DNA from: a virus
Virus record (IMG/VR): IMGVR_UViG_3300027708_000012
Span: 281,370-345,369 of that record
DNA: 64,000 nt
Strand: one strand, 5' to 3'
The notes beneath the pieces are model-generated. The model ran no database searches. It was not told the DNA's origin and was given only the letters and a program-made list of their open reading frames with translations. Within the stretch, counting starts at the first letter, position 1. Every line of letters begins with the position of its first letter. This document shows, one piece after another, positions 1,684-37,872 of the stretch. The position numbers and the translations under genes were made by a program.

Positions 1684-1706
1684 AAAGAAACCCGCCGAAG
1701 CGGGTT
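1684..1706 (-). terminator. Terminator after tmRNA
   Basis: A 7-bp GC-rich stem AACCCGC/GCGGGTT closed by a UUCG tetraloop is followed by TCTTT on the minus strand. It ends the tmRNA precursor and separates it from the helicase promoter. Confidence 0.8.
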
Positions 1707-1923
1707 CTACTATTTTTGGTGACAAAGCATAGTTGCTTCGCGAGGGCAGTTTTTTAGGCTGCTAATGCAAATTCTGCATCATTGGCAGAAGCCAATGTTA
1801 CTGGAACTTGAAAATACTCGAATGTAGATGTTTTAGCATTTACTTTAATTTGCTTGATTTACAGTCATCGCCTACTGAGTTGCCGTCTTCAATATCTAAC
1901 CCCGTCGAAACCATGGCAGGCCC
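1707..1923 (-). ncRNA. ssrA: tmRNA coding piece (5' half of a permuted two-piece tmRNA)
   Basis: The piece begins at 1923 with GGGCCTG, the 5' strand of the acceptor stem, followed by the conserved tmRNA stretch GGTTTCGACGGGG. The tag reading frame lies at 1792-1754 and encodes ASANDAEFALAA then TAA; the last ten residues align one for one with the E. coli tag ANDENYALAA. A further 45-nt segment with pairing potential runs to the terminator. No CCA end or T arm follows the tag; those lie upstream at 2014-2041, so the gene is circularly permuted. It should rescue stalled ribosomes and tag the products for proteolysis during infection. The exact 3' end of the piece and the resume codon are inferred. 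Confidence 0.88.
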
Positions 1924-2013
1924 ATCATAAACACACTCAAATCTGAAAGGTGTCGCCTGTGACGCCTTGTGTTTATAACACCACCACTCGGGACTCAAAC
2001 CCGCATGTGTTTA
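1924..2013 (-). ncRNA. Intervening segment of the permuted pre-tmRNA
   Basis: This segment joins the CCA end of the acceptor piece to the 5' end of the coding piece and should be removed by processing. Its two ends pair with each other and prolong the acceptor stem: CAGGTCCACCATAAACACA pairs with TGTGTTTATGATGGGCCTG over 19 positions with one mismatch and one G-U pair. Inside the loop lies GCGGGTTTGAGTCCCG, close to the real T arm GCGGGTTCGACTCCCG, which looks like a decayed duplicate. A small stem near 1940-1957 is also possible. Confidence 0.75.
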
Positions 2014-2085
2014 TGGTGGACCTGGCGGGAGTCGAACCCGCGTCCGAGATTCCTTCTATCCAAAGGAATTACAACTATTTCATTT
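2014..2085 (-). ncRNA. ssrA: tmRNA acceptor piece (3' half of the permuted tmRNA)
   Basis: The piece ends at 2014 with an encoded ACCA. Before it come the acceptor strand CAGGTCC (2018-2024), which pairs fully with GGGCCTG at 1917-1923 allowing one G-U, and a canonical T arm GCGGG-TTCGACT-CCCGC (2025-2041). Upstream is a hairpin with strands ATTCCTT and AAGGAAT. The 5' boundary near 2085 is not defined by sequence. The piece starts about eight bases after the stop codon of the cold-shock gene, so the two are probably cotranscribed. Confidence 0.85.
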
Positions 2086-2092
2086 AACCCAA

Positions 2093-2296
2093 TTACTTGG
2101 GTTGAATATTTGCTGCCTGCAAGCCTTTTTGACCTTGTACCACATCAAATGTCACTGATTGATTCTCTTGCAGAACTTTGAATCCTGATGTTTGAATCGC
2201 TGAGTAGTGTGCGAAAAGATCCTCGCCGCCGCCGTCTGGAGTAATAAACCCAAAACCTTTGGTTTCATTAAACCATTTTACTTTACCTGTTGCCAT
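2093..2296 (-). CDS. Cold-shock domain protein
   Basis: This 67-residue protein is a single CspA-type OB-fold domain. The RNA-binding motifs RNP1 (KGFGFI) and RNP2 (DLFAHYS) and the N-terminal GKVKWFN are intact, and the length is normal for the family. It should bind single-stranded RNA or DNA and act as an RNA chaperone. It sits directly upstream of the tmRNA on the same strand behind a sigma70-like promoter, so both are likely expressed early and may serve translation together. Confidence 0.95.
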
Positions 2297-2321: not shown

Positions 2322-2350
2322 ATTATAGTGTATTTTATTTATCAGAGCAA
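2322..2350 (-). promoter_or_regulatory. sigma70-like promoter of csp-tmRNA
   Basis: TTGCTC (2345-2350) and TATAAT (2322-2327) on the minus strand are 17 bp apart, followed by an AGGA site and the cold-shock start codon. Confidence 0.7.
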
Positions 2351-2995: not shown

Positions 2996-3076
2996 TTTAA
3001 AGAACCCACCTTAGGGCACGTTAGTCGTCACGGTTATAGGCGTCCGAGCAATTGAACTGCACCTCGTTAGTGTGCC

Positions 3077-3103
3077 GGGAGATAAAGTAACTCCCACTTT
3101 TTT
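3077..3103 (+). terminator. Terminator after the DUF4337-like gene
   Basis: A GGGAG/CTCCC stem with a nine-base loop is followed by ACTTTTTT. About 75 bases between the stop codon and this hairpin hold no evident gene. Confidence 0.65.
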
Positions 3104-3116
3104 GGGTAAATATATA

Positions 3117-3821
3117 ATGAATCCAATTATATATACCCTGATAGTAACACATATTACTATCGTCTGTGTTACCCTATTTTTACATAGAGGTCAAGCACAC
3201 AAAGGAATAGAATTCCACCCAATTCTAAGTCATTTTATGCGATTCTGGTTGTGGTTAACAACTGGAATGATTACTCGTCAATGGGTAGCTATACATCGTA
3301 AACATCATGTGTTCAGTGATAAGGAAGGCGATCCGCATAGTCCGCATATATTTGGCATTTGGAATATAGTATTTAAGGGTGTTACATTTTACGCTCGAGA
3401 AGGACGTAACGCTCAAACTATGATGAGTTACGGAAAAGGTACTCCTAATGATTGGATTGAACGTAATTTGTATACCCCATATAATTTCTACGGAATTCTT
3501 TTAATGTTGATTATAGATCTTGTATTATTTGGTCTGTGGGGATTAGTAATATGGGGTATACAAATGGTGTGGATACCTTTTTGGGCAGCAGGAGTTATTA
3601 ACGGAATAGGACATTGGTATGGATATCGTAACGGTACTACAAGGGATGGGAGTCGTAACATTAGTAACATTGGCATACTTATTGGTGGCGAAGAGTTGCA
3701 CAATAATCACCACTTGGATCCAGCGAGTGTTAAACTAAGTCGGCGCTGGTTTGAATTAGATATAGGCTGGATGTGGTTAAGTTTATTTAGATTTTTAAGA
3801 CTAGCTAAACTTACACGTTAA
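3117..3821 (+). CDS. Fatty-acid desaturase (delta-9 type)
   Basis: This 234-residue integral membrane protein has the three histidine clusters of membrane diiron desaturases: HRGQAH near residue 23, HRKHH near 61 and HNNHH near 200, with hydrophobic segments between them as in the acyl-CoA/acyl-lipid desaturase family. It should insert a double bond into membrane fatty acids, which would alter host membrane fluidity. The ATG at 3117 was chosen because the earlier GTG at 3072 lies inside the preceding terminator. No strong ribosome site is seen. The first box HRxxxH is slightly divergent from the usual HRxxTHR form. Confidence 0.88.
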   Translation: MNPIIYTLIVTHITIVCVTLFLHRGQAHKGIEFHPILSHFMRFWLWLTTGMITRQWVAIHRKHHVFSDKEGDPHSPHIFGIWNIVFKGVTFYAREGRNAQTMMSYGKGTPNDWIERNLYTPYNFYGILLMLIIDLVLFGLWGLVIWGIQMVWIPFWAAGVINGIGHWYGYRNGTTRDGSRNISNIGILIGGEELHNNHHLDPASVKLSRRWFELDIGWMWLSLFRFLRLAKLTR

Positions 3822-12934: not shown

Positions 12935-13536
12935 TTTTTATTGTATAGTAAACTGGATGCCACTATCATAACAGTCTGTGCCATCTCAATATCTGAAGGT
13001 TTTTCCTTCCATCCGACACTAATTTGCCCGATAAACAAACCTGGTTCTGCTGGAACACTTATGCGACACATGTAGTTTACACCAGATGCTTTATAAGTAA
13101 ATCCAATATAGCTTTGAGGTCTGTTATAGTCTGCACAGGGAATTTTGCCTGACATTAGACCAATAACATCTTCATTGTTATTTAGATTTTTCGTTAACAG
13201 GCCAACATCTGCACCGTCGTGAGTTTTATCATGGCCGCCACTACGACTGGTTAAGTAAGTTAATTTTCTAGTGTTAAGCACAGTATTAACTTCAAACAAT
13301 GCTACTAGTTCTGCATCTGTATTTTTCAGTATAAAGTTTGCGGCTTCTTCATACTTGCCATTCATTTTGGGTAGTGCTTGTTGAGCACGATAACTGGCCA
13401 TAAAGTTATCTTTTTCGCTGTATACGATCCAGCCTCCAAAAGTAAGGAGGCATAGAAACACAACCGTAAATAGGCGAAAAGGACTTTCGCCTATGAACTT
13501 CAATAGTTCAAGCAGGAACTCTTTCAGCTTGTCCAT
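12931..13536 (-). CDS. Membrane-anchored extracytoplasmic protein of the uptake operon
   Basis: The 201-residue protein has one membrane helix near residues 21-41 (LFTVVFLCLLTFGGWIVY) followed by a probable periplasmic alpha/beta domain with two Cys (IPCADYNR and NYMCRISV). The domain could be a small ligand-binding (GAF/Cache-like) module but no signature is decisive. It overlaps the symporter by 29 bases and the racemase by 4, so the three are translated as one unit. A sensor or accessory role in acidic amino-acid uptake is inferred only from context. Confidence 0.55.
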   Translation of the reverse strand: MDKLKEFLLELLKFIGESPFRLFTVVFLCLLTFGGWIVYSEKDNFMASYRAQQALPKMNGKYEEAANFILKNTDAELVALFEVNTVLNTRKLTYLTSRSGGHDKTHDGADVGLLTKNLNNNEDVIGLMSGKIPCADYNRPQSYIGFTYKASGVNYMCRISVPAEPGLFIGQISVGWKEKPSDIEMAQTVMIVASSLLYNKK

Positions 13537-14788
13537 GGTCCACGTCTGCTACAAATGCTGTTACACCCATATTACCAATAACATGGCTGGCTGTGCGAAT
13601 CATATCCATTAGAGGATCAACAGCAATAAACAAGACCAATACTGCTTCGCTTGGTAGTTTTAACAAGTCACAAACAACTGCCACTGTAGCCACTGTTAGA
13701 ATACCTGTAGTACCTGCACTTGCTAGTCCTGCTAAAATGCTACCAAGCAATATAACAATCAATCCACTGGCACCTAATGATAAATCATAAATGCCAGCAA
13801 TAAACGCTGTGGCAATGGCATAGTAAACAATACTTCCAATACGGTTAACAGTAAAGCTCAAGGGAGTAGTTAGTTCTACGGCATCTTTATTATAGCCTAG
13901 TTTAACTAAAGCTTCTTGGCTGTAAGGAATACAAGCTAGGCTTGAACGACTACTAACAGCAATCATAAATGTTTCTTGTATGCCATGCATTGTGTCTATA
14001 ATACTCTTGCGAGATTTCCAGGCAATATATGCTGTAGCAATAGCAACAATAATAAATCCGCCCACAGTCTGCTGAATAATAAAATCAACCATAGTACCAA
14101 AAATGCCTACGCCTACCTTGGCTACTTGTGTTGATATCATGGCAAATAGTGCAATTGGTAAGAAGTAGTTTAAGAACTTGAAAATACTAATACTGGCCTG
14201 TTGGACACTTTTGAAGATATCAATCATAACTTCTTGTCCCACAGACTTTATGTTGCCCAGGGCAATACCGAAGATTAAACAGAAAATAACAATCTTAAGA
14301 CTTTCACCAGATTCTAAACTTTGAAAGATATTTTCTGGAATAAACTTCTGTATCATTGCACCAGCACTTGGCTTAGGTACAACTAGCATTGGCTCTTTTA
14401 GTGTAATTGACATTTCGGTCCCTTGGTCTTTGTTGTTGACCAATGCACCAAGTTGTACTTTCTTTTCGGGAGTCATTTCGCTGCCAGTTAATACTGTCGA
14501 ACCAACGCCAACGACAGAAGCCATGAACATACTAACAACAAAGCCAATGACAATCTTTTTAATCATCGACTGGCTACCTTCTTTCTGTAGCAGTCCAACT
14601 ACACCAACTAGAATAGTGGCAAATAAGAAAGGTAATACAACAACCTTTAATAAACTGATGTAGATACTACCAATAGATTCTAATGCCATAACTTCGTGAG
14701 GCAAATATACCCCGCCAGCTACAGCCAACAGAATACTGCCTAAAATAGTCCAAGGACTAGCTAAAAATTTCTTTATATCGATTTTCAT
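13508..14788 (-). CDS. Dicarboxylate/amino-acid:cation symporter (DAACS/SDF family)
   Basis: The 426-residue polytopic protein is full length for the family (about 400-440). The hairpin-1 serine cluster appears as SSRSSLACIP (279-288), the TM7 motif as NRIGS (315-319, usually NMDGT) and the TM8 motif as DPLMDMIRTASHVIGN (about 391-406). The Arg that binds the substrate side-chain carboxylate and the following Thr are kept, pointing to aspartate, glutamate or a C4 dicarboxylate. Cation-site positions (NMD, and the N and final D of NVxGD) are changed, so coupling may differ. Its ATG overlaps the stop of the binding-protein gene. Confidence 0.88.
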   Translation of the reverse strand: MKIDIKKFLASPWTILGSILLAVAGGVYLPHEVMALESIGSIYISLLKVVVLPFLFATILVGVVGLLQKEGSQSMIKKIVIGFVVSMFMASVVGVGSTVLTGSEMTPEKKVQLGALVNNKDQGTEMSITLKEPMLVVPKPSAGAMIQKFIPENIFQSLESGESLKIVIFCLIFGIALGNIKSVGQEVMIDIFKSVQQASISIFKFLNYFLPIALFAMISTQVAKVGVGIFGTMVDFIIQQTVGGFIIVAIATAYIAWKSRKSIIDTMHGIQETFMIAVSSRSSLACIPYSQEALVKLGYNKDAVELTTPLSFTVNRIGSIVYYAIATAFIAGIYDLSLGASGLIVILLGSILAGLASAGTTGILTVATVAVVCDLLKLPSEAVLVLFIAVDPLMDMIRTASHVIGNMGVTAFVADVDHGQAERVPA

Positions 14789-28655: not shown

Positions 28656-30290
28656 TTAACCTTTTGTTATTAATTTATTTACCTCGGGGAGATAAAGGTA
28701 TTTAATTCCTGATCTCCTCAAAGTGCTTAATGCATCATCAATTGTTTCTACTAAGGGTTCTCCTCCTAAATTAAAACTAGTATTAAATAAAATTGGAACA
28801 CCAGTTTGATTATTAAACTCAGTTATCAAATTATAAAAATGAAAATTTTGTTCAATATTAATTGTTTGTACTCGACACGTATTATCCACATGTACAATGC
28901 TTGGTATTTGATTTTTCTTATTTTCTAAAACATTCACAGCATACATCATAAATGGACTGTTAGACGTGTTACGCATATCAAACCATTCGTGTACATGCTC
29001 TTCTAATACAGTTCCGGCAAACGGCCTGTACCATTCTCTTCCTTTTACACGATTAACAATGTCTTTACCTTGTTGTACTCTAGGGTCGAACAAAATACTA
29101 CGATTGCCTAATGCACGAGGTCCAGCTTCTGAACCTCCTTGAAATATAGCTACTATATTTTCAGAAACTAATAGATTAACAATGTCCGAGTAACTAACTG
29201 TTTGCTCAGTTTCATTTGATTCTAATTTATAATTGTAACTAGGAGTTGGACCTAGACAAAAAGATAATTGTTTATTTGGAGTCGTATTATTAGTAGTACT
29301 ATAATAAGCCAGTTTAGCTATACCTATACTTTGCCCCCCATCGTGCGCAGGAGGGTCTATGAATACATTAACGTCTTTAGGAATGTGTTTTAAATATTCA
29401 TAATTAGCTACACAATTTAATGCATAGCCGCCTGATATTACTAAATTTTTAGAATTGGATAATTTAAGTGCGGTTAAAATTAAATCAGTGGCTACTGATT
29501 GAGTAGATTGCTGTACAGCATAACAAAGATTGGCCGCATCATATTGTTCTACTTCGTCAAGGAATGGCGCAGCATACATTGCTGTATTAGGCCTAAACAA
29601 CTGTTTGTTAGGTGTTTTTTTACCGTTAACAGTTACATATATTTGTGGAATAGTTTCATCGTTCTTTCCGTACGAACTTAATCCCATTGCCTTGCCGCAC
29701 TCTAAATTTGTATGCCCTAAAGCAATACTTAGTGCAGAGTATATACTGGCAATACCTTGCTCATTAGCAAAGACTTTTTCTTCGTGAAACTTAGTAAGTT
29801 GATTATAGTTATTTCCAAACTTTTTATATATAGATGTAAATGTTTTTGGAAATTTTGCTAGATATATGCTTTCAACTTCGTATCCGGCTTTGCCAGCTTG
29901 GTCTAATTCGATATATTTTCCAGCAGCATCTATAACTACACATACCGCTTGGTCAAAACCAGAACTATAAAATCCACTGGTTGCATGATATAGATGATGC
30001 TCACCATTATTAAACACTTGCCTGTGATTGTCAATTAATCCAAGTTTTAAGGCAAATTTAATAAACGGGCCTGCTTCATTTGTAGTATCTGATGACCCTA
30101 CAGATATGGCTAGACAATCTACTTTATTCGTGTATTCAAGAACTTTAAGTAGTCCTAAGAATGGACTATCGTCGTATTTTTTTCGACTTAGTCTTTCTTC
30201 TTCTACATAAAAAACAATATTACCATTTTTAAGTAAACAAGTAGATGCGTTATGCCCTGTACTTATACCTACAATCCAGTTGTCACGCAT
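28656..30290 (-). CDS. Carbamoyltransferase (NodU/TobZ/HypF family)
   Basis: The 544-residue protein has both domains: an N-terminal Kae1-like ATPase-fold part (GISTGHNASTCLL, EEERLSRKKYD, HHLYHATSGFYSSGF) and a C-terminal YrdC-like extension (PRALGNRSILFDPR, KGREWYRPFAGTV, FNTSFNLGGEPLV). It should transfer a carbamoyl group from carbamoyl phosphate to a hydroxyl of a sugar or small molecule. It heads the operon containing IscU, halogenase-like and IscA genes, suggesting tailoring of one compound or surface group. Confidence 0.92.
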   Translation of the reverse strand: MRDNWIVGISTGHNASTCLLKNGNIVFYVEEERLSRKKYDDSPFLGLLKVLEYTNKVDCLAISVGSSDTTNEAGPFIKFALKLGLIDNHRQVFNNGEHHLYHATSGFYSSGFDQAVCVVIDAAGKYIELDQAGKAGYEVESIYLAKFPKTFTSIYKKFGNNYNQLTKFHEEKVFANEQGIASIYSALSIALGHTNLECGKAMGLSSYGKNDETIPQIYVTVNGKKTPNKQLFRPNTAMYAAPFLDEVEQYDAANLCYAVQQSTQSVATDLILTALKLSNSKNLVISGGYALNCVANYEYLKHIPKDVNVFIDPPAHDGGQSIGIAKLAYYSTTNNTTPNKQLSFCLGPTPSYNYKLESNETEQTVSYSDIVNLLVSENIVAIFQGGSEAGPRALGNRSILFDPRVQQGKDIVNRVKGREWYRPFAGTVLEEHVHEWFDMRNTSNSPFMMYAVNVLENKKNQIPSIVHVDNTCRVQTINIEQNFHFYNLITEFNNQTGVPILFNTSFNLGGEPLVETIDDALSTLRRSGIKYLYLPEVNKLITKG

Positions 30291-37157: not shown

Positions 37158-37872
37158 AGTTCTGTTTGTAGTACTGCTCCACACGTTGCCACCATTGATC
37201 TTCCCAGTAGCTAAAATCCTCAGGTTTTAGGATAAATTCCTGGTAAGCAGGTTCTCCCCATACCATAGGCGTAATTTCTGGCGGTTTTACACACATTAAT
37301 ACAACACCTTTACGTATGTTTGTACCATATATTTTATTATGTGCCAGTGCATAAGCTGTTAGCTGTAAGTAGTACCCAGTAATCCACTCTAGTTTTTTAG
37401 GTTTATTAGTTTGCTTGTAATCTAGAATAGACTCTTCATTCATGTGTAGACCGCAACCGTCAGAAGTTCCTGCATATAAACCCGGATAGTATAAGGGTAC
37501 TTCAACACCCCATACTTCGTTTACATTTACCAACCCTTGTTCAATAACATGTTTAGCCATTTTGTGACTTTGTACACTATAAGGGTTTGAGCCAGGATCT
37601 CTTAATATGCCGTCTTTAACATAGTCCTCAAGATACTTGTGCATTCGTGTTCCACGATTAGCAGCTTCTGTAGTAATCTCTTGTGCTTTCTTTTCACCCA
37701 CAGCACGTCTCCATGCTTGGAGTGCGGCTTTTTCTTCTTCGGGTTTAGTTTTGTCTAGGATGGTAGTAACGCTAGGAACTTTACTACCATCTGGTGTCGC
37801 ATATAAGCGTTTGCCTTCTACACTTTCTCTACTAATAGAGGTGTAGGAATATCGTTCGTTGAGTAAAGTCAT
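37156..37872 (-). CDS. PD-(D/E)XK exonuclease (Cas4/RecB-like)
   Basis: The 238-residue protein has PSVTTIL at the N-terminus, a helical region ending RGTRMHKYLEDY, then AGTSDGCG and ILDYKQTNKP, the D-x(n)-D/E-x-K core of RecB/Cas4-type nucleases, followed by YYLQLTAYALAHN (QhxxY motif). Such nucleases are common in T4-like cyanophages and act in DNA recombination or repair. A strong sigma70 promoter indicates early expression. Confidence 0.85.
   Translation of the reverse strand: MTLLNERYSYTSISRESVEGKRLYATPDGSKVPSVTTILDKTKPEEEKAALQAWRRAVGEKKAQEITTEAANRGTRMHKYLEDYVKDGILRDPGSNPYSVQSHKMAKHVIEQGLVNVNEVWGVEVPLYYPGLYAGTSDGCGLHMNEESILDYKQTNKPKKLEWITGYYLQLTAYALAHNKIYGTNIRKGVVLMCVKPPEITPMVWGEPAYQEFILKPEDFSYWEDQWWQRVEQYYKQN

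Follow-up and report, generated by a model that had tools for sequence, protein, structure and literature searches.

A circularly permuted tmRNA gene with a 27-residue tag frame in a 345-kb phage record

In this study, we describe a circularly permuted tmRNA gene at about 1686-2083, minus strand, of a 64,000-nt stretch of viral DNA (here referred to as the window) that forms the end of a 345,369-base IMG/VR virus record. A tmRNA frees stalled ribosomes and tags the incomplete proteins on them for degradation. We consider it likely, with a probability of about 0.86, that the gene specifies a functional phage-encoded two-piece tmRNA of the beta type, which lies behind a cold-shock (csp) gene, depends on host SmpB, and adds a 27-amino-acid tag starting at UAAAU|GCU.

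Results

A preliminary description of this DNA, made from the sequence alone, had proposed a permuted two-piece tmRNA, to be checked with covariance models and ARAGORN. The permuted and beta covariance models and ARAGORN all matched. Rfam model RF04321 (tmRNA_permuted) aligned at 2076-1754 over its full length (model positions 1-213) and in the permuted order, with 125.9 bits (E 3.4e-24) against a gathering score of 47 bits; RF01850 (beta_tmRNA) gave 106.1 bits at 2128-1686 and was kept over its clan rivals; and ARAGORN called a permuted tmRNA at 1663-2106. Among the older permuted subtype models RF01850 scored best, and judged by these model scores, not by a tree with bacterial beta sequences, the window RNA is of the betaproteobacterial structural type. 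A second Rfam match (G000:273900-274072, 28.8 bits) fell below the cut-off and lies inside a dense tRNA cluster (L002, around G000:273900), about 10 kb from the tmRNA, in which several tRNAs look degenerate.

All parts of the gene are on the minus strand. The 5' part is the acceptor piece (2014-2083, delimited by the RF04321 and RF01850 alignments and the sequence, with an approximate 5' limit), which contains a helix strand, the T arm (2025-2041), the acceptor 3' strand CAGGTCC (2018-2024), and an encoded ACCA (2014-2017, with the CCA end at 2014-2016). It is followed by an intervening sequence (1924-2013) that is predicted, from the fold and from pairing in 67 relatives, to be removed in maturation. 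The 5' part of the mRNA piece (1740-1923 in the RF04321 alignment) starts with the acceptor 5' strand GGGCCTG (1923-1917) and holds the GGTTTCGACGGGG core, the tag frame, and its stop; inspection of the sequence likewise located the core, GGUUUCGACGGGG. The tag frame with its stop, AKTSTFEYFQVPVTLASANDAEFALAA (27 aa), occupies 1754-1837, as assigned by ARAGORN, the resume context, and a codon-position test. Located 3' of the tag are an H-type pseudoknot (1709-1738), placed by covariation in relatives, in which AAGCA pairs with UGCUU and the loop ACUA pairs with UAGU, and an intrinsic terminator, GAACCCGCUUCGGCGGGUUU (1688-1707), found by a mechanical scan. The CCA end, acceptor strands, T arm, GGGCCTG from 1923, core, and stop at 1754 had all been placed correctly in the preliminary description. 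The alanine identity pair G3.U70 is present, and the whole gene is predicted to fold more stably than shuffled sequences (z -3.8).

The complete pairing of the acceptor strands across the two pieces, also noticed earlier, was seen again in the relatives. All 7 pairs form in the window and in 67/67 viral relatives parsed by script (67 of 88 sequences, the other 21 being left out of the pairing counts), pair 3 is G.U in every one of the 67, and pairs 4-6 covary through compensatory changes. The acceptor helix is prolonged by the ends of the intervening sequence (2013-2006 and 1935-1928), which also cover the CCA end. Over the 67 relatives, 9.4 of the first 10 positions beyond the CCA were paired with the stretch preceding the mature 5' end, compared with 6.0 (maximum, 6.5) for shuffled partners, and this precursor helix is therefore maintained. 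In 39 of 63 distinct relatives the second stem of the pseudoknot reached 4 bp or more, whereas shuffled partners gave a mean of 21.9 such relatives (maximum, 29). A comparison of the intervening-sequence helix with bacteria yielded three usable genes and was left out of the evidence.

The window intervening sequence contains a T-arm-like hairpin, GCGGGUUUGAGUCCCG, and later AUAAACACA, and looks as if the acceptor piece had been partly repeated in tandem. In two relatives it carries tRNA-like remnants (a T arm in L012 and L028, with a D-arm-like part in the latter), and in two others (L004 and L006) it is filled by small ATG-initiated open frames of about 35-40 codons.

The tag had been read as ANDAEFALAA (10 aa), starting with GCC at 1786, but this proved to be only the last part of the 27-aa tag. 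The resume codon GCU at 1837-1835 directly follows UAAAU, so that the true resume motif, UAAAU|GC, lies 51 nt upstream of the earlier start; ARAGORN reads 27 codons from 1837, and the open frame, also 27 codons, ends in ALAA followed by a UAA stop. The alternative, that the tag is indeed 10 aa long and the preceding 51 nt are untranslated RNA, draws on the resemblance of the last ten residues to a complete beta/gammaproteobacterial tag. However, GCC at 1786 is preceded by CUUCU, whereas the viral relatives have UAAAU, or a sequence close to it, ahead of the resume codon, and the upstream codons are open, with length varying by whole codons, in 79 long-tag sequences.

Substitution patterns also speak against the short reading, which we regard as very improbable. 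On a tree built from the non-tag part of the 79 long-tag genes, changes over the whole tag fell at codon positions 1/2/3 in the numbers 283/221/377 (p 3e-9, this and the p-value below being indicative, as independence of changes is assumed). In the middle of the extension (alignment columns 14-20) the numbers were 61/46/105, with third positions taking 105 of 212 changes; the first 13 columns alone gave a weaker signal (95/83/112, p 0.03), and the non-tag control columns were flat (395/360/382). This count was used because pairwise dN/dS, which was dropped, was saturated over all pairs (0.67) and, over close pairs, gave a low value biased by selection on amino-acid distance. The third-position excess shows, as far as patterns of change in the sequences can, that the extension is translated, and by the same measure it is under purifying selection. 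The usual tag of the betaproteobacterial permuted group is short and of the ANDERFALAA type; the window tmRNA, for which the model of that group scored best among the older permuted subtypes, has a 27-aa tag instead. Tag calls can fall short both by eye, as here (10 instead of 27 residues), and with ARAGORN (12 instead of 27 in L004).

A scan for the tag start returned more than 100 uncultured viral loci, nearly all of them permuted tmRNAs with 22- to 33-aa tags, and the start, A[NK]xxTF[DE][YF], is kept across many viruses. The two main classes read A[NK]xxTFEYFxVPxxxxANDxxFALAA and ANADTFDFSAMSFTGNTVxGxxxFALAA; a third long class, built around VTVSGKNxKFSAR, ends in LAV and lies away from csp (L290 and L291, in the giant phages G002 and G003). 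Most tags of the relatives end in xAA or VA. In one long-tag relative (L196, 1527-1965) the frame overruns the normal end and lacks LAA, probably through a frameshift. A search for csp relatives, blind to the tag, led to 30 viral loci in which ARAGORN called permuted tmRNAs; tags of at least 22 aa are present in 20 of these, and short-tag two-piece tmRNAs also occur beside the same csp gene.

When the tag-start pattern was applied to 84,980 bacterial and archaeal species genomes, none of the 38 matches was a tmRNA by ARAGORN, a result that excludes only tags with an A[NK]xxTF[DE][YF]-type start and not every long tag. A tblastn search of 50,697 phage records found no long tags; ten weak matches (E 9) sit in annotated proteins of mycolicibacterial phages. 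In a sample of 29 bacterial permuted tmRNAs from one phylum, the tags were 10-13 aa long. The long-tag class is, from these scans, apparently virus-only. The view that the tag records a host lineage is not supported by the absence of the tag start from the tmRNAs of the genomes scanned, nor by Xanthomonas phage XacN1, which has a permuted tmRNA though Xanthomonas, as we place it, falls outside the known two-piece groups. The list of these groups is that of PMC9004378.

Of seven records of isolate or named phages that we examined, four contain a permuted tmRNA. That of XacN1 is present twice, owing to terminal repeats (37231-37530 and 356026-356325; L283 and L284), with the tag ANANTFDYALAA; it is unannotated in this region of the record and unmentioned in the genome paper (PMC5852040). 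In Sinorhizobium phage Phosso (349596-350198; L307) the permuted tmRNA match is about 600 bases long and yields no tag call by ARAGORN, and in Xanthomonas phage X1 (L308) the match has a tag, VAANDADYSVARYA, with an odd end.

As previously stated, the tmRNA gene lies downstream of a cold-shock gene, which encodes a 67-aa cold-shock domain protein (2093-2296, minus strand; Pfam CSD PF00313, 101.9 bits). Of 79 relatives identified solely by their tag, 48 have a csp gene immediately upstream of the tmRNA. The promoter of this unit had been described as a phage promoter. A promoter-like site, TTGCTC-17 nt-TATAAT (2322-2350, minus strand), was indeed placed from the sequence and is common to the relatives, but it is host-type and sigma70-like and was not called at 2350-2322 by the mechanical promoter scan. 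Exact TTGACA occurs in 22% of 52 upstream regions (3% of shuffles) and exact TATAAT in 26% (11% of shuffles), while the T4-type late promoter TATAAATA is not enriched before csp. Enrichment of the sigma70 hexamers and not of the T4 late motif suggests that the csp-tmRNA unit is transcribed early by the host polymerase.

The phage origin of the gene was borne out by the record, which contains a T4-like Gp23 major capsid gene and, within the window, phage tail and virion families, and by related giant-phage records. Relatives of similar size include a 356-kb record with a csp-tmRNA unit and a 383-kb record with a tmRNA and no csp match beside it. The window also carries genes for a DUF4337 protein (2405-2995), a fatty acid desaturase (3072-3821), a sodium:dicarboxylate symporter (13508-14788), and a Nol-like carbamoyltransferase (28656-30290), an unusual metabolic cargo for a phage.

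No match to SmpB was found in the 345-kb record or in 16 relatives, and none to SspB in the 345-kb record. The phage does encode a 196-aa ClpP, matched at 258 bits, as well as a protein of ClpA type. In the C-terminal half of the latter, a 765-aa open frame, the best match is E. coli ClpA, and the IGF loop, with which ClpA docks ClpP, is retained. Both ClpA-type and ClpP matches were obtained in 7 of 10 long-tag records of >200 kb (G000, G001, G002, G003, G006, G008, and G009), and a further, shorter Clp ATPase is present in G002 and in G003, that of G003 being ClpX. A strict need for ClpAP does not fit G007, G010, and G012, which lack ClpA or ClpP matches (these records may be partial), or XacN1, which has a tmRNA and no ClpA match. 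The jumbo phage Phosso combines ClpA and ClpP with its permuted tmRNA match. Since ClpA/ClpP are also present in the giant phages Atu_ph07, PAC2, and RaK2, which have no permuted tmRNA match, protease and tmRNA are not bound to occur together.

Discussion

In light of these data, we propose that the tmRNA is expressed behind the cold-shock gene from a host-type promoter and that its transcript would fold such that the acceptor helix continues into the intervening sequence. Precursor processing, as in bacterial permuted tmRNAs, would then release the acceptor piece and the mRNA piece. The RNA would be charged with alanine via G3.U70 and is assumed to use host SmpB, because the phage has none. 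During infection it would rescue stalled ribosomes and add the 27-residue tag from the UAAAU|GCU resume codon, placing a normal ALAA degron at the end behind a conserved virus-specific segment, and the tagged proteins would presumably be degraded by ClpXP or ClpAP, the latter possibly encoded by the phage itself. Purifying selection on the tag and the covarying acceptor and precursor helices agree with the earlier suggestion that the gene is maintained for use; the partial T-arm-like repeat in the intervening sequence was counted against a functional tmRNA.

It is conceivable that this is an ordinary phage tmRNA with a neutral long tag, in which tagged proteins reach host ClpXP by way of the ALAA end, with the extension no more than tolerated. 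We give this reading somewhat less than an even chance: most relatives retain xAA or VA ends, short-tag two-piece tmRNAs lie beside the same csp gene, and XacN1 has its tmRNA without a ClpA match, but neutral drift would predict neither purifying selection on the extension nor an A[NK]xxTF[DE][YF] start kept across many viruses. At the other extreme, giant phages could run a private quality-control route, in which a virus-only 22- to 33-residue tag leads to phage ClpAP (in some also ClpXP), only SmpB is borrowed, and tag and protease have diverged together from the host system. We consider this unlikely as a whole. Adaptation of the tag to the phage-encoded ClpAP is plausible, though not proven, and coupling between the two is put forward as a hypothesis because ClpA/ClpP occur elsewhere without a tmRNA match and the XacN1 tmRNA occurs without ClpA.

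A decoy that sequesters SmpB and inhibits host trans-translation, like the RNA of phage DS6A type, which consists of the tRNA-like domain only and inhibits tmRNA (PMC11915505; PMC4131195), would suit a phage without SmpB. However, such a sponge would need neither the tag frame and stop nor the resume context and pseudoknot, all of which are maintained, and we think it highly improbable. Least probable of all is a functionless host ssrA copy, carried along as a passenger or in decay, as might be read from L196 with its missing tag end, given the selection on the tag, the covariation, and a pattern scan that gave no bacterial source with such a tag.

A conserved, apparently virus-only long tag peptide under selection offers a direct handle on why phages carry a tmRNA. 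Should tag and protease form a private pair, this would mean that these phages redirect protein breakdown in their host cells; otherwise, the tag extension still needs a function.

Although the preliminary description took known phage tmRNAs to be mostly one-piece, a phage two-piece tmRNA is not novel in itself, since Buchholz 2022 (PMC9004378) reports 53 of them in phage genomes, mostly aquatic, and four of our seven phage records have one. Also published are tmRNAs and SmpB in huge phages (PMC7162821) and ClpP and ClpA in jumbo phages (PMC7824862: RaK2, PA5oct, Atu_ph07, and Phosso). Our literature searches brought up no long-tag class of phage tmRNA and no report of such a class being linked to csp or occurring together with ClpAP; single long tags may nevertheless stand in supplementary tables.

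Similar to the gene described here, that of the aquatic Methylophilales phage Melnitz is permuted, lies near an early-type promoter, and is probably expressed in infection, according to the passages on it in PMC9004378. In contrast, the Melnitz ssrA groups with alphaproteobacteria and lies beside a glutamine riboswitch, whereas the window RNA, which carries a 27-aa tag, belongs by model score to the beta type. Long tags, linkage to csp, and a phage ClpAP do not figure in those passages. With the RF01850/RF04321 tmRNAs (PMC11915505), the window RNA shares a tRNA-like domain, acceptor pairing across the pieces, the core, and a hairpin or pseudoknot after the tag, but its tag has 27 aa, compared with 10 aa as the commonest length over all tmRNAs. 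The ssrA tag of Mesoplasma florum, reviewed in PMC9382460, is likewise longer than that of E. coli and linked to a protease change; however, it is bacterial, ends in NYAFA, and is read by Lon, while xAA or VA endings prevail among the viral tags and genes for ClpA and ClpP lie in the phage genome. Finally, phage-encoded protease and unfoldase homologues have been described in jumbo phages (PMC7824862) with no mention of SsrA or trans-translation, whereas here ClpA and ClpP share a genome with a long-tag tmRNA.
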